A stretch of 64,000 bases of DNA from Pigmentibacter sp. JX0631 (lineage in GTDB: Bacteria; Bdellovibrionota_B; Oligoflexia; Silvanigrellales; Silvanigrellaceae): the NCBI RefSeq assembly GCF_029873255.1, contig NZ_CP123622.1:1024501-1088500 (forward strand), written 5' to 3'. The translations under genes were made by a program, and so were the position numbers. Under the pieces are notes generated by a model that was not told the origin of the DNA, did not search any database, and saw only the letters and a list, made by a program, of their open reading frames with translations. Shown here piece after piece: positions 56,973 to 63,448 of this stretch; the stretch's first letter is position 1; each line of letters opens with the position of its first letter.

Positions 56973-57572
56973 ATGAAAGAATTTAATCTTGAAGTATTTA
57001 ATAACAGCAATCAGACCCAAGTCTTGACATTTATTAACAATAAAACAAAAGAACTAGGTTTTGATATGGCTTCCCGACCTGAAACTGGGGCTTTACTAAG
57101 AGTTCTAGCTGCTTCAAAACCCAATGGTAAAATTCTCGAAATTGGTACAGGCACTGGGTACGGAACAGCTTGGCTGTTAGAAGGAATGGATGAAAATTCT
57201 CAACTAATTAGCATTGAAGCGAATATAAATGTACAAAATGTTGCAAATGAAATTCTAAAAAATGACAAAAGAGTTCAATTACTGAATGAAAATGGATCTG
57301 AATTTTTAAAAAAGCAGCAATTACATTCTTTTGATATTATTTTTGCAGATGCTTTTCCAGGCAAATATGAATTACTTAGTGAAACTTTAAATCTTTTAAA
57401 ACCTGGTGGAATTTATATAGTTGATGACATGTTACCTCAACCAGATTGGCCTGCAGATCATTTTCCACTTGCTCAGTCAGTCATAGAAAATTTGAAAAAA
57501 TTAACTAATGTAACATCAGTAGGATTACATTGGTCCAGTGGACTAATATTAATGGTTCCGAAATTTAAGTAA
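56973..57572 (+). CDS. class I SAM-dependent O-methyltransferase
   Basis: A 199-residue methyltransferase from ATG 56973 with GAGGG upstream (a TTG at 56961 is rejected). DMASRPETGALLRVLAAS leads into ILEIGTGTGYGTAWLLEGMD, a clear SAM-binding motif I, then LISIEAN for the ribose, FDIIFADAFPGKYE and GGIYIVDDML. This arrangement suits small-molecule or carboxyl/hydroxyl O-methyltransferases. It is the first of four closely spaced plus-strand genes, 9 bases before the PLP enzyme, and divergent from the membrane protein, so a promoter should lie at about 56840-56970. Confidence 0.8.
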   Translation: MKEFNLEVFNNSNQTQVLTFINNKTKELGFDMASRPETGALLRVLAASKPNGKILEIGTGTGYGTAWLLEGMDENSQLISIEANINVQNVANEILKNDKRVQLLNENGSEFLKKQQLHSFDIIFADAFPGKYELLSETLNLLKPGGIYIVDDMLPQPDWPADHFPLAQSVIENLKKLTNVTSVGLHWSSGLILMVPKFK

Positions 57573-57581
57573 AGGTAGTTC

Positions 57582-58850
57582 ATGAAAGAAGCTTATAATT
57601 TAATAAAAAAAATAGATGAAGAATATTGGAAAAAATTCAGAAATGATTTTATTCTTGATCCAAATTTTATTCATTTATCACTTGCAATCCAAGTTTCACA
57701 CAGTATTCAATTAAATAAAGAAATTGATAAATATAGATCTATGATCGATAAAAATCCTGACTTAATGCGAAGAGAAAGACATTTTCATACTGGAGAAACA
57801 ATTACTGCTGCAGCAAAATATTTGAATACAAGTAAAGATTTAATTGCTTTGACAGAAAGTTCGACAATGGCAATGGCCATTGTTTTAAATGGATTTATTT
57901 TTAAAAAAGATGATGAAATAATTACTACTGATAGTGAGCATTATTCGCTAGAAAAATTGTGTGAATATAACGCAGTAAGACAAAATTTAAGTATAAAAAA
58001 GTTTGAATTAAGTAAAGTAATAAAAGGAATTAAAAAAGAACAAATAATAAATGGAATTTTAGATAAAATTACAGATAAAACCAAATTAATTGCAATATCA
58101 TGGGTTAATTCTAAATATGGATTAAAAATGCCAATAAAAGATATTGCAAAAAAATTAAAAAAAATAAATTTCTCTCGCTCTGAAAATGAAAAAATTCTTT
58201 TTTGTGTTGATGGTGTTCATGGATTTGGTGTCGAGGCGTTTCAATCAATCCACGAACTTGATGTAGATTATTTTGCTGCAGGTTGCCATAAATGGCTTTT
58301 TGGTCCAAGAGGTACCGCTATTCTTTGGGCAAGTGAAAAAGGGTGGAAAAGAATAGAACCTACTATTCCATCTTTTGAGAAAATAGCCTGGGATATTTTT
58401 TTATCATGGGAAAATAAAAAGTTTAAAGAAGAAGAATTACTGAAATCAAAATTTTGCACACCAGGAGGGTTTAAAAATTTTGAGTATATTTGGGCTTTGA
58501 AATATGCTTTTGAAAATCAAGAAAAAATTGGAAAAATTAATATTTATAAAAAAATAAAATATTTAGCAGATATTTGTAAAAAAGAGTTAATTAAAATTAA
58601 AAATTTAGAACTCATAACACCATTAAATAGTGAATTATCCTCTGGTTTTATTTGTTTTAATTTCACTGGGATTGAGCCATCTTCAATTGTGAAAAAAATG
58701 TACGATAAAAATATAATTATTGGTCAGTCACCTTATAAAGATACTTGTTTACGAATAACACCTAGTATTTTTAATACTGAAGAGGAAATTATTACAGCTT
58801 GTAATTTGCTAAGAATAATAATTAAAGAGATTAGAAATGAAAAAAGATAA
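57582..58850 (+). CDS. class V PLP-dependent enzyme (isopenicillin-N-epimerase/cysteine-desulfurase-like)
   Basis: A 422-residue fold-type I enzyme. TESSTMAMAIVLNG (91-104) forms the phosphate pocket, CVDGVHGFGVEAF (208-220) has the conserved Asp210 and His213, and AGCHKWLFGPRGTAILW (233-249) contains the PLP-binding Lys237. FCTPGGFKNFEYIWAL is typical of CefD/EgtE-like members. There is no cysteine loop like that of NifS/IscS, so desulfuration is not indicated; epimerisation, C-S lyase or transamination chemistry is more likely. AAAGG precedes ATG 57582, and its end overlaps the next gene by 14 bases. Confidence 0.78.
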   Translation: MKEAYNLIKKIDEEYWKKFRNDFILDPNFIHLSLAIQVSHSIQLNKEIDKYRSMIDKNPDLMRRERHFHTGETITAAAKYLNTSKDLIALTESSTMAMAIVLNGFIFKKDDEIITTDSEHYSLEKLCEYNAVRQNLSIKKFELSKVIKGIKKEQIINGILDKITDKTKLIAISWVNSKYGLKMPIKDIAKKLKKINFSRSENEKILFCVDGVHGFGVEAFQSIHELDVDYFAAGCHKWLFGPRGTAILWASEKGWKRIEPTIPSFEKIAWDIFLSWENKKFKEEELLKSKFCTPGGFKNFEYIWALKYAFENQEKIGKINIYKKIKYLADICKKELIKIKNLELITPLNSELSSGFICFNFTGIEPSSIVKKMYDKNIIIGQSPYKDTCLRITPSIFNTEEEIITACNLLRIIIKEIRNEKR

Positions 58851-60333
58851 TTACTATGATATTGCAATTATAGGTGGAGGTGCTCAAGCAACTGCTTTTA
58901 TTTCAGGAATTTATTCTAATTTTATTAAAAAAAATATCGAAAAAAAAATCAAAATTATAGTTATAGATAGAATAGAAAATTATGGTTGTGGAAAAGTTTA
59001 CAATCAAGATTATCCATGGCTCTTAATGAATACTCCTAGTACTGATTTATCCATAAATATAAATGATTCTAATGACTTTAAAAAATGGTTGCAAGCTAAT
59101 TCTAAAACTTTAGAGCTTTCAGAAAAAAATATTGAATATGTTCCACGCAAAATTTTTGGATTTTATTTAAAAGAAAAATTAGAATTCTTTATTGAAGAAC
59201 TTAAAAAGAAAAATATTGAAATAATAAAAAAAGATTCCCTAGCAAAAAAAATTAATTTAGATAATTATGAAAATAAAGTTACAATAACATTATCAACAAA
59301 TGAAAAAATTTATTGTAATTTCACAGTTTTAGCCAAAGGGCATGATGATTTAAATGATCCATATAAATTAAAAGGAAAAAAGAATTATATTCACAACCCT
59401 TTTCCAGCAATTAAACATCTTGCCAATTTTCCTAAAGATTGTTCAATCGGTATAATAGGGAGTAATTTAACCGCAATTGACATAGCTTTAACATTGGAAA
59501 AACTTGGACATAAAAATTTTTATATGTTTTCAAGAACAGGAAAACTTCCTGAAGTAAAGGGGAAATACTTAAAAAGCGAAGAACCAAAATATGCAAATTT
59601 AAAAAATATAATTAGATATAAAAATGAAAACCTTACACTAAAAGATCTCTTAAAATTTATAAGAAAAGAAATGTACGGACATAAATTAGACTGGAGGGAA
59701 ACTCTATTTTCAAAAAGTAAAGCAAATGAGAAAGATTTATTTATTAAAAAAATAAAGTTAGCGAAAGAAGCTCCTACTCCATTTAATGTTATACTTGGGA
59801 TGATACCTGAATTCGCTAAAACTTGGCGGTTTGTTAAAACTTCTGAGTTTAATAAGTTTATGAATCTCTATTATTCTAAAATTCATCAAAAACATGGTGC
59901 TATACCACTAATAAATGCTGAAAAAATTGAAACCATGCTATTAAATAATATACTTCATATAAGAGATAATATTCAACTTATTGAAAAGAAAGAAGATCAC
60001 TTTTTAATTTATTCAAATAAAGAAGCTATCAAATGTGATTTTGTTATTAATGCCTCAGGCCCTTTAAGAAAAGTATGCCACGAGAATCAAGGACTATTGA
60101 AAGAATTATGTGCAAAAAATTATATAAACGAAATTGACATAGGGGGGATTATTACAAATCCAAAAAATGGTAAAATATTAAGTATAAATAAATTGTGTGA
60201 GCAAAAAATTTTAGCAATAGGACATAATGCTGAAGGAACGCATCCCTTTATAAATAATTTTGCTTGGATTCTAGAAACAACAAATGAAGTTAGTTTATCG
60301 CTGCTGAATGAGGTATTATATGGAAAAGTATAA
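58837..60333 (+). CDS. FAD/NAD(P)-binding protein (FAD_NAD_bd_9 type)
   Basis: A 498-residue flavoprotein-like enzyme. IAIIGGGAQATAFISGI (9-25) is the FAD Rossmann loop, YGCGKVYNQDYPWLLMNTPS the family's variant of the GxGxAY--d-p-hLLN-p motif, and SIGIIGSNLTAIDIALTLEK near 207 the NAD(P) loop. FVINASGPL and LAIGHNAEGTHPFINNFAW near the C-terminus resemble the closing FAD contacts. Relatives are poorly characterised; some occur in natural-product clusters. It is translated in overlap with both neighbours. Oxidation of an amino acid or of the cassette's intermediate is a guess. Confidence 0.72.
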   Translation: MKKDNYYDIAIIGGGAQATAFISGIYSNFIKKNIEKKIKIIVIDRIENYGCGKVYNQDYPWLLMNTPSTDLSININDSNDFKKWLQANSKTLELSEKNIEYVPRKIFGFYLKEKLEFFIEELKKKNIEIIKKDSLAKKINLDNYENKVTITLSTNEKIYCNFTVLAKGHDDLNDPYKLKGKKNYIHNPFPAIKHLANFPKDCSIGIIGSNLTAIDIALTLEKLGHKNFYMFSRTGKLPEVKGKYLKSEEPKYANLKNIIRYKNENLTLKDLLKFIRKEMYGHKLDWRETLFSKSKANEKDLFIKKIKLAKEAPTPFNVILGMIPEFAKTWRFVKTSEFNKFMNLYYSKIHQKHGAIPLINAEKIETMLLNNILHIRDNIQLIEKKEDHFLIYSNKEAIKCDFVINASGPLRKVCHENQGLLKELCAKNYINEIDIGGIITNPKNGKILSINKLCEQKILAIGHNAEGTHPFINNFAWILETTNEVSLSLLNEVLYGKV

Positions 60334-61585
60334 CTCCCAACTCCAGGGTACAATTTGTATTGTAGATGCATATTCAACAGGAAAGAAATTATTACATGAA
60401 TTTAGTAAATATGGTAAAAAATGTATCCATATAAAAAGTACAGAAAAAGAAGAAGATGATCATAAAAGAACGGAATTTATTGCAGAGTTAACATACACAG
60501 GAAATTTATTCTCTTTAAAAGATGAACTAAAAAAATTTAATCCAGAATTTATTATTGCTGGTTCTGAAATGGGTGTAGAACTTGCTGATAAATTAAGTGA
60601 AGTATTTAATATTCAAAAATGTAACAACCCTCTTTCAACGGCATTAAGACGCAATAAATACTTTATGCATGAAAAATTAAAAGAAGCAAATTTAAAAGCA
60701 ATAAAACAATTTAAATCAAAAAATGTTTTAGAAATTATGAATTGGGCAGAGGTAAATAAAAAATGGCCAGTTGTTGTAAAACCACTTAATAGCGCAGCAA
60801 GTGATGGTGTAACTATTTGTGGAAATACAAATGAAATTGAACAGGCATTCAGTAGAATTATGTATCAAGAAAATAAATTAGGTATAAAAAATGAAGAAGT
60901 ATTAATTCAAGAATACGTTGAAGGTACGCAATATTTTGTAAATACTATCAGTTGGAATGGTAAACACTATATTTCAGATATTTGGAAACAAAATAGAAGA
61001 AGATTAAAGGATAGAGCATTTTTATTTGAATCCATGTCTTTATGTGACAGTGAAGGGGAATTAGAAAAAGAATTAATTGAATATACAAAAAAAATTCTTG
61101 ATGCTTTAGAGCTTTCGCATGGCGCTGCTCATAACGAAATTATAATTACAAAAGATGGACCAGTTTTAATTGAATTAAATGCCAGACTAATGGGGGCATC
61201 AATTGAGGATGAGGCATTTAAACAAGCATTGGACATGACTCAAGCAGAAATTCTTGCTTTAGCATATTCAAATCATGATTTATTTTTACAAAATTATGCT
61301 GATAAAAAATATTTAAAAAAACAGCATTTGCATGAAGTTTCATTTATTTACGAAAAAAATGGGATACTTTTAGATTTTCCTAAAAAGTATAGTATTGAAA
61401 GAATGTTTTCCTTTTTTTGTTTTTCTGGATTAAATCAAATTGGTAATGCTGTAAAAAAGACTGAAGATACCTTAGGTCATCCTGGATATGTTTATTTAGT
61501 TCATCATGAAGAAGAAATTATTTCTAAAGATACGGAGCAAATTTTAAAATGGCAACGAAATAATGAATTATTTATTATTGAATAA
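60320..61585 (+). CDS. ATP-grasp carboxylate-amine ligase
   Basis: A 421-residue ligase from ATG 60320 with GAGG 6 bases upstream; ATG 60308 overlaps that site. The N-terminal domain (1-100) is a pre-ATP-grasp fold. WPVVVKPLNSAASDGVTICG contains the ATP-binding Lys and glycine loop, VLIQEYVEGTQYFVNTISWNG the adenine strand, and GAAHNEIIITKDGPVLIELNARLMGA the metal-binding Glu/Asn pair. This set is typical of L-amino acid ligases such as BacD and related dipeptide synthetases. It closes the four-gene cassette and suggests an amide or dipeptide product. It converges with the next gene. Confidence 0.83.
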   Translation: MEKYNSQLQGTICIVDAYSTGKKLLHEFSKYGKKCIHIKSTEKEEDDHKRTEFIAELTYTGNLFSLKDELKKFNPEFIIAGSEMGVELADKLSEVFNIQKCNNPLSTALRRNKYFMHEKLKEANLKAIKQFKSKNVLEIMNWAEVNKKWPVVVKPLNSAASDGVTICGNTNEIEQAFSRIMYQENKLGIKNEEVLIQEYVEGTQYFVNTISWNGKHYISDIWKQNRRRLKDRAFLFESMSLCDSEGELEKELIEYTKKILDALELSHGAAHNEIIITKDGPVLIELNARLMGASIEDEAFKQALDMTQAEILALAYSNHDLFLQNYADKKYLKKQHLHEVSFIYEKNGILLDFPKKYSIERMFSFFCFSGLNQIGNAVKKTEDTLGHPGYVYLVHHEEEIISKDTEQILKWQRNNELFIIE

Positions 61586-61586
61586 A

Positions 61587-63221
61587 TTATCTTAATTTAA
61601 GTTTCCATACATAAAATAAAACTCCATTATGTTGTTCGCCTAAAGAAGCAAGACGGTCTGAATTATATGCAAAAGACATCTTTTGATTTAGAACTACCAC
61701 AAATATATTATTATTATAAAAGTATTCAGACATTTTCTTTGTATAGTAAGAGGTATCATTAATATTTTTTATTGAAAGTTCATATAATGAATCAAAAGAA
61801 CTATCTTTAGGACCTTCATTTGCATAATATGCAGTCGTTTTAAAAAATGAGAAATTTTTATTAGGATCATTTGAAGAAAAACCAAATCCTGTCCACCAAA
61901 GAACATTGGTATCATTTTCTGAAAATTTAGGATAATTTAAATCTGTATCGTAAAATTTGACTTGAATTCCTACATCTTCAAGCTGCTTTTTTATCTCTTG
62001 AATATAAGGAAGCGAATTAATATTCTTAATGTTAGCCCAATATGTATGAACGTGAAATATTTTATTTTTCCAAAGTGAATGTGGTATAGAATTCAAAAGT
62101 TGCTTTGCTTTTTCAACATTTTGTTTATTTAATGGTTTTTGAATTCTATATTCTTTTAGTGCACTAAAAGCTGGGATCATTTGATCTTCAGGTATAATTT
62201 CTTTGTATAAAGAAGTGTTTGCTATTTTTTCACGGTCCAAAGCAAGAGAAATTGCTTCTCTAAATTTTTTATTTTTTCCTAATTCCGTTCTAAAATTAAA
62301 AAGGAATCCACCATTTGAGTAAATATTAGGGAAAATTATTTTTCTGTCAGTACCTGATTTTCCTCTGCCGCTATCTCCTAATAAAATCTTAATATCACCT
62401 TCGTCTTTACTACTAAATATAAATCTAATATATTTTGGTATATCTTCTTTACGATTAAATTTTTTTAAAATAAATTCATACTTTTCCCAATTTACATATT
62501 CAACTTTATATTTTCCAAAACCAACCGGATATTTTTTCCAATTTGTATAAGATTTATCTAATTCTTCTATAGGTACAATAGGTATTCTTCCTATAGAAAC
62601 TTTATTCAAGAAAAATTTGTTTCTCCATTTTAATTTAAAAATAATATTGTAATTGTCAACGACTTCTATTCCTTTTACTAGACCAGTTGGATAGTTTATT
62701 GAATTAATCTCAGTAAATGGAAGATTATTGGTATTTTTTAGTTCTTCAATGCCTACAATATCATTTAAAAGGGATGTTACTACAGAATTTTTTTTATTTT
62801 GTAACAAAGCTCTTAATATTGAAAACTCAACATCATATGCTGTAACTTCTCTTTTGTTCTGAAACAAAACATTCTTCTTTAGAAAAGCTTGACATATATT
62901 ATCTTCACAGTAGTAACGTTCAATTAGTGAGTTCTGTTTAATTTCATCTGTAGTACTTGCTTCATCCCTTGCAATCAAACAGCCATGAACAGAAGCTGTA
63001 AAAGTTTCAATAACATGTGATACCGCCCTTGATGTATCCCACGGAATTTGGGGTATTTCAGAAAGATTAATTGTTATTGTTTCTTCTGCAGGAAATAAAA
63101 CCTGATAAGAAAATAATTGCTTTACTTTATTAAATATAAAAAAAACAAGAAAAGGGATCAATATTGCTAATGCAAATCTTTTTAAATCAATATTTTTAAA
63201 TTTCATTGCAAAATTTTCCAT
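61587..63221 (-). CDS. family 5 extracellular solute-binding protein (oligopeptide/dipeptide type), membrane anchored
   Basis: About 544 residues from ATG 63221; ATG 63206 is the alternative. A positively charged N-terminus precedes one hydrophobic helix (FALAILIPFLVFFIFNKV) with no lipobox, so the protein is probably tethered in the inner membrane facing the periplasm. REVTAYDVEFSILRAL, FREAISLALDREKIA and KQLEDVGIQVKFYDTD are SBP_bac_5 motifs that appear in the usual order. No permease or ATPase is adjacent. It converges with the ATP-grasp gene, their ends one base apart. The ligand could be a peptide or the cassette's product. Confidence 0.72.
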   Translation of the reverse strand: MENFAMKFKNIDLKRFALAILIPFLVFFIFNKVKQLFSYQVLFPAEETITINLSEIPQIPWDTSRAVSHVIETFTASVHGCLIARDEASTTDEIKQNSLIERYYCEDNICQAFLKKNVLFQNKREVTAYDVEFSILRALLQNKKNSVVTSLLNDIVGIEELKNTNNLPFTEINSINYPTGLVKGIEVVDNYNIIFKLKWRNKFFLNKVSIGRIPIVPIEELDKSYTNWKKYPVGFGKYKVEYVNWEKYEFILKKFNRKEDIPKYIRFIFSSKDEGDIKILLGDSGRGKSGTDRKIIFPNIYSNGGFLFNFRTELGKNKKFREAISLALDREKIANTSLYKEIIPEDQMIPAFSALKEYRIQKPLNKQNVEKAKQLLNSIPHSLWKNKIFHVHTYWANIKNINSLPYIQEIKKQLEDVGIQVKFYDTDLNYPKFSENDTNVLWWTGFGFSSNDPNKNFSFFKTTAYYANEGPKDSSFDSLYELSIKNINDTSYYTKKMSEYFYNNNIFVVVLNQKMSFAYNSDRLASLGEQHNGVLFYVWKLKLR

Positions 63222-63448
63222 ATTCAAAATTCTTAATAAATCATTCAAATATTAATTAGTAAAAAAAAAGATCATTGTCTATGCGATAAATAAAATTTTT
63301 ATCTCAAAACTCCACATTTATTAAATGTAATTTATGCAAAATATTTAAATTATTTCAGAATCAATCGAATATTATTACTATTTTTATAAAAAGTCAAATT
63401 ATTTTATCTAAGTTTAAAATATTGCAAATTTGAATCATAATTTTTTAT

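Follow-up and report, generated by a model that had tools for sequence, protein, structure and literature searches.

The three overlapping genes at 57582–61585 of the window (the whole 64-kb stretch analysed, positions 1024501–1088500 of a complete 3.65 Mb genome) encode, on balance, a cytoplasmic pathway that needs no NRPS and yields a small N-oxygenated metabolite of dipeptide-like or amino-acid amide type. Protein families, fold, conserved catalytic residues, co-inheritance of the genes and purifying selection on them were all directly supported by the analysis. The host, of the order Silvanigrellales, shares its GTDB genus with Spirobacillus cienkowskii; the bacteria that carry the three genes are water-dwelling and kin of a water-flea (Daphnia) pathogen.

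The sequence-only reading had listed four intact open reading frames on one strand with spacings of +9, −14 and −14, and this was borne out. The methyltransferase and PLP genes are separated by 9 nt, the flavoprotein gene overlaps the PLP gene by 14 nt and the ligase gene, when read from the ATG at 60320, overlaps the flavoprotein gene by 14 nt. An alternative in-frame ATG at 60308 would give a longer ligase. Just one terminator-like site was found, within the flavoprotein gene, and it is no better than expected by chance. The cassette carries no exporter, resistance or immunity gene, or dedicated regulator.

Table 1. Genes and putative ribosome-binding signals of the cassette and the adjoining methyltransferase gene (window positions)
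Feature	Position	Strand	Basis or remark
O-methyltransferase-like gene, 199 aa	56973..57572	+	Pfam Methyltransf_3/24
AAAGG, Shine-Dalgarno-like	57571..57575	+	overlaps methyltransferase stop codon, 6 nt before PLP start; read from sequence
PvdN-like class V PLP enzyme, 422 aa	57582..58850	+	Aminotran_5 HMM; NCBIfam PvdN; PDB
FAD/NADPH N-hydroxylating-monooxygenase-like protein, 498 aa	58837..60333	+	PF13454 NAD_binding_9; AF2; Foldseek; profile
GAGG, Shine-Dalgarno-like	60310..60313	+	inside flavoprotein gene end, 6 nt before 60320; read from sequence
ATP-grasp L-amino acid ligase, PRK07206/DdaF subfamily, 421 aa	60320..61585	+	ATP-grasp_4/PRK07206 HMM

The distribution of these genes was searched in eight genomes of the genus (G000–G007), one of which (G001) is incomplete. 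The PLP, flavoprotein and ligase genes were found together in five (G000, G002, G003, G006 and G007), two of them Spirobacillus cienkowskii assemblies (G003, draft; G007, complete). Their order is kept in all five, at 47–91% amino-acid identity, and dN/dS against the nearest relative, G002, was 0.08, 0.19 and 0.05, indicating purifying selection. The retained order and the low dN/dS values argue against a chance arrangement. In G007 a frameshift breaks the flavoprotein gene (L038:11018–12560) in two, and in the near-identical G003 the gene is intact; the frameshift may be either an error or real decay. Neither G004 nor G005 has an orthologue of any of the three genes, their ligase matches being distant paralogues only (~30% identity), and none of the three was found in the incomplete G001.

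Gene-by-gene comparison revealed a common left flank (MetQ, MetI, MetN, aspartokinase, a VC0807-family protein and the methyltransferase) and a common right flank (SBP_5, a DAO-like flavoprotein, a PrmA-like protein, a 328-aa protein and a 360-aa protein). Less of the left flank is visible in draft G003, whose contig starts just upstream of the VC0807 gene. The five genomes have the three cassette genes and nothing else between the flanks, whereas G004 and G005 carry other genes there, spanning about 20 kb. The methyltransferase was found in all seven good genomes and stays syntenic in G004 and G005 without the cassette. Within the window its GC content is 0.32, compared with 0.26–0.28 for the cassette genes and 0.37 for aspartokinase, and both its GC and its conservation level match those of the core flank. 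The flank comparison and the persistence of the methyltransferase without the cassette thus point to an accessory unit of three genes with a core gene, the methyltransferase, next to it. The methyltransferase probably plays no functional role in the cassette, and its co-transcription with the three genes is plausible.

These results narrow what had been proposed as a four-gene cassette. Its three overlapping genes stand as a unit, and the neighbourhood search recovered them as a block in five genomes of the genus; the methyltransferase, which is also present where the three are missing, falls outside that unit. Methylation of the product was dropped from the proposed chemistry, since the methyltransferase occurs without the other three genes, has a higher GC content and is conserved to the degree seen in the core flank. 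The broader idea of an operon-like small-molecule pathway centred on an amino-acid ligase was supported, the three downstream genes being kept as a block in several species. In a concatenated flank comparison G004 and G005 pair together, apart from the other genomes, so one gain or one loss would explain the pattern. Because the flanks are syntenic too, the conserved order within the genus partly reflects descent.

The downstream SBP_5, DAO and PrmA-like genes were considered as cassette parts and ruled out, all being core. The SBP_5 gene (61587–63248) encodes a solute-binding protein whose N-terminus has a hydrophobic stretch and is convergent to the cassette; its homologues form a tandem pair in G004 and G005. 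An Rrf2-family regulator gene (Pfam match) adjoins the methyltransferase gene in G006 (L036:9223–9639), and an Rrf2-similar ORF lies by it in G005 (L066:8673–9155); none is found there in G000.

The flavoprotein has NAD_binding_9 as its sole Pfam match above cut-off. Its AF2 model (pLDDT 81.8, pTM 0.84) comprises two dinucleotide-binding domains with a helical insert, as in the FzmM class. The top Foldseek match was FzmM (8cp2; E = 1.1e-20, TM 0.74 by query, ~13% identity), with putrescine and ornithine N-hydroxylases ranking below it. Among PDB chains, a profile of 12 homologues independently gave FzmM as the top match (E = 1.8e-17); the next match, at 1.6e-8, was partial. In FzmM, Asn62 sits over flavin C4a and is generally conserved and critical in class B N-hydroxylating monooxygenases (PMC10404684). 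By residue alignment Asn65 of the flavoprotein corresponds to this residue and is invariant in all 12 homologues, while Tyr55 corresponds to FzmM Trp51. The stretch of FzmM that holds the L-aspartate-binding Arg266, 409, 412 and 416 lies outside both aligned segments. With FzmM nearest in both fold and profile and the catalytic Asn matched, N-oxygenation is the leading reading of the predicted activity. Other class B monooxygenases oxidise carbon or sulfur, and the flavoprotein may instead be a C- or S-oxygenase.

The ligase passed the cut-off of NCBIfam PRK07206 (NF005543; 361.6 bits, cut-off 302) and fell below that of the DdaF equivalog model (215 bits, cut-off 840). Its best solved relative is an 'L-amino acid ligase' (PDB 30vh, E = 8e-64). 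The catalytic motifs comprise HNE (Glu277) and ELNAR (Glu289, Asn291 and Arg293), numbered from the ATG at 60308. Lys158, Glu289 and Arg293 are invariant in eight homologues, and Glu277 is invariant within the genus. Homology places the enzyme with dapdiamide synthase DdaF, in a subfamily of dipeptide ligases. Dipeptide formation by ATP-grasp ligases, TabS among them, proceeds via acyl phosphates (PMC13338154). No ligase match was found in the phage records searched. Elsewhere, G005 contains a dapdiamide-like cluster (L068:2168–14145; G005:C21) with SbnA and SbnB above cut-off and a DdaF ligase above the equivalog cut-off, together with a TauD-like ORF, an adenylation protein, a thioesterase-like ORF, an asparagine synthase and a transporter-like ORF.

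The PLP enzyme matched NCBIfam PvdN with E = 7.8e-90, although its score of 301.5 bits is below the cut-off of 650. In the PDB, PvdN (5hh9/5i90) was the best match by far. Alignment showed the aldimine-forming Lys237, the N1-binding Asp210, His213 and His236 to be invariant. PvdN is reported to carry out a decarboxylating oxygenation of its substrate using O2 (PMC7497351). The AF2 model of the PLP enzyme (pLDDT 55.5, from a shallow alignment) was left out of the evidence. Most PvdN family members found by profile search carry a twin-arginine signal, and the Tat motif is present in the relatives from P. aeruginosa, Nonomuraea, G047, G212, G248 and G256, whereas the Silvanigrellales proteins have none. 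A PvdN-like protein of Streptomyces cyaneofuscatus is also without the Tat motif and is encoded near three ATP-grasp-type genes. The few cases available suggest that some PvdN-like enzymes form a cytoplasmic branch associated with ligases. The same region of the S. cyaneofuscatus plasmid (L033:3724–13248) also encodes an NAD(P)/FAD oxidoreductase, a 2Fe-2S protein and an MFS transporter.

The motifs named in the sequence-only reading (Lys237 of the PLP enzyme; HNE and ELNAR of the ligase) are present and invariant in the aligned genus relatives. Two of its family labels were too general: by fold and profile, the 'FAD/NAD(P)-binding protein' is a relative of N-hydroxylating monooxygenases, and the 'class V PLP enzyme' is PvdN-like and not a simple aminotransferase.

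We infer the reactions, the order of steps and the substrates as follows. With O2, the FzmM-like FAD/NADPH enzyme would oxygenate an amine nitrogen, either in an amino acid or in the ligation product. The ATP-grasp ligase would convert one carboxylate to an acyl phosphate, to which a second amino acid would be coupled through its amine. The PvdN-like enzyme would form an external aldimine with a free α-amino acid end, which would then be decarboxylated, probably with O2, to give an amide or aldehyde. The product is most likely an N-oxygenated dipeptide-like molecule or an amide.

The same gene set could be read as a sulfur route resembling ergothioneine or lincomycin biosynthesis, in which the flavoprotein would S-oxidise a cysteine conjugate that the ligase makes or caps and the PLP enzyme would act as a C–S lyase, freeing a thiol. 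The wider PLP family does take in C–S lyases: the antibiotic-biosynthesis enzyme LmbF, likewise a PLP enzyme of fold-type I, is a C–S β-lyase (PMC11794154), and the cassette enzyme also matches the hercynylcysteine sulfoxide lyase Egt2. These matches are nevertheless far weaker than those to PvdN (PDB, 1.7e-15 for Egt2 vs 6e-63; NCBIfam, 1.4e-4 for EgtE vs 7.8e-90), and the flavoprotein fold is nearest to N-hydroxylases. The sulfur route is accordingly judged unlikely. Assignment of the PLP reaction type through LmbF/CcbF residue numbers was dropped; the Asp-to-Lys spacing is 37 there and 27 here.

A pathway of all four genes with a methylated product is improbable, given that the methyltransferase remains in place in the cassette-less G004 and G005 at the GC and conservation level of the core flank. 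Such a pathway would fit the gap of just 2–27 nt between the methyltransferase and PLP genes in the cassette genomes, and methyltransferase genes elsewhere: in Streptomyces anulatus one from another subfamily separates the ligase and flavoprotein genes, and one precedes a ligase gene in Yersinia frederiksenii. Just as little probability is given to a housekeeping role, with the three enzymes modifying or salvaging a cofactor, peptidoglycan fragment or cellular dipeptide and no metabolite being secreted. The missing exporter and immunity gene and the peptide-binding-type SBP_5 gene converging on the cassette would suit it. However, the SBP_5 gene is core, whereas the cassette has an accessory distribution, a low GC content and flanks that are kept without it, and the nearest characterised relatives of all three enzymes work in natural-product pathways. 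Anti-phage defence was rejected, the DndA/SspA and mads_2 matches being weak and partial.

The N-oxygenating dipeptide pathway preferred here might also embody a minimal, undescribed logic, in which an N-hydroxy, nitroso or nitro amino acid is joined by ATP-grasp dipeptide ligation and finished by a cytoplasmic PvdN-type O2-using decarboxylase; this more specific proposal is tentative and rather doubtful. If true, it would mean that Silvanigrellales, a Daphnia pathogen among them, make small amides or nitro-peptides of a new class. The cassette pairs two O2-using enzyme types for unusual nitrogen groups with a peptide ligase that stands alone, all in three compact genes that are easy to co-express. 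Literature searches found no described cluster matching this gene set. Pigments are what the consulted papers on Silvanigrellales describe; the Spirobacillus genome paper makes no mention of secondary metabolites or biosynthetic gene clusters.

Related but uncharacterised pairs of a homologous PF13454 protein and an ATP-grasp protein occur in other bacteria and speak in favour of the preferred pathway. The two genes are adjacent in Vibrio coralliilyticus and in Pantoea stewartii, where an MFS gene follows, and are one gene apart in Photobacterium sp. GJ3 (with an MFS-like gene between) and on Streptomyces anulatus plasmids (with the methyltransferase gene noted above). Unlike the cassette, none of these pairs has a PvdN-like PLP gene, and the Pantoea and Photobacterium ligases are distant from the cassette ligase (E = 2.5e-18 and 1.5e-6). 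Other flavoprotein relatives sit in contexts without a ligase, which counts against the pathway. A flavoprotein–ligase pair with a PvdN-like member was not seen in 383 sampled non-genus genomes or 72,556 plasmid records, and contig scans with peptide patterns, which were too specific, gave nothing useful beyond Spirobacillus.

Among characterised systems, FzmM/CreE, an L-aspartate N-hydroxylase (nitrosuccinate synthase), shares fold, profile and catalytic Asn with the flavoprotein. It differs in length (600+ vs 498 residues) and in having Trp51 in place of Tyr, and its Asp-binding arginines could not be matched to the flavoprotein by alignment; moreover, no nitrosuccinate lyase (CreD-like) gene lies beside the flavoprotein gene. 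The PLP enzyme resembles PvdN in its 33% identity over 92%, its PLP lysine, the Asp/His set and the TPGG motif. In contrast to that pyoverdine-tailoring enzyme, it has an ~18-residue insertion around 266–290, no Tat signal (no twin-arginine in the first 40 residues) and no pyoverdine genes in its neighbourhood. The cassette differs from the true DdaF-type cluster of G005 in having no Sbn-like or NRPS genes nearby, but its ligase shares the fold, the ATP-binding Lys158, the Mg-binding Glu277 and Glu289, and the length of DdaF/TabS-type ligases.
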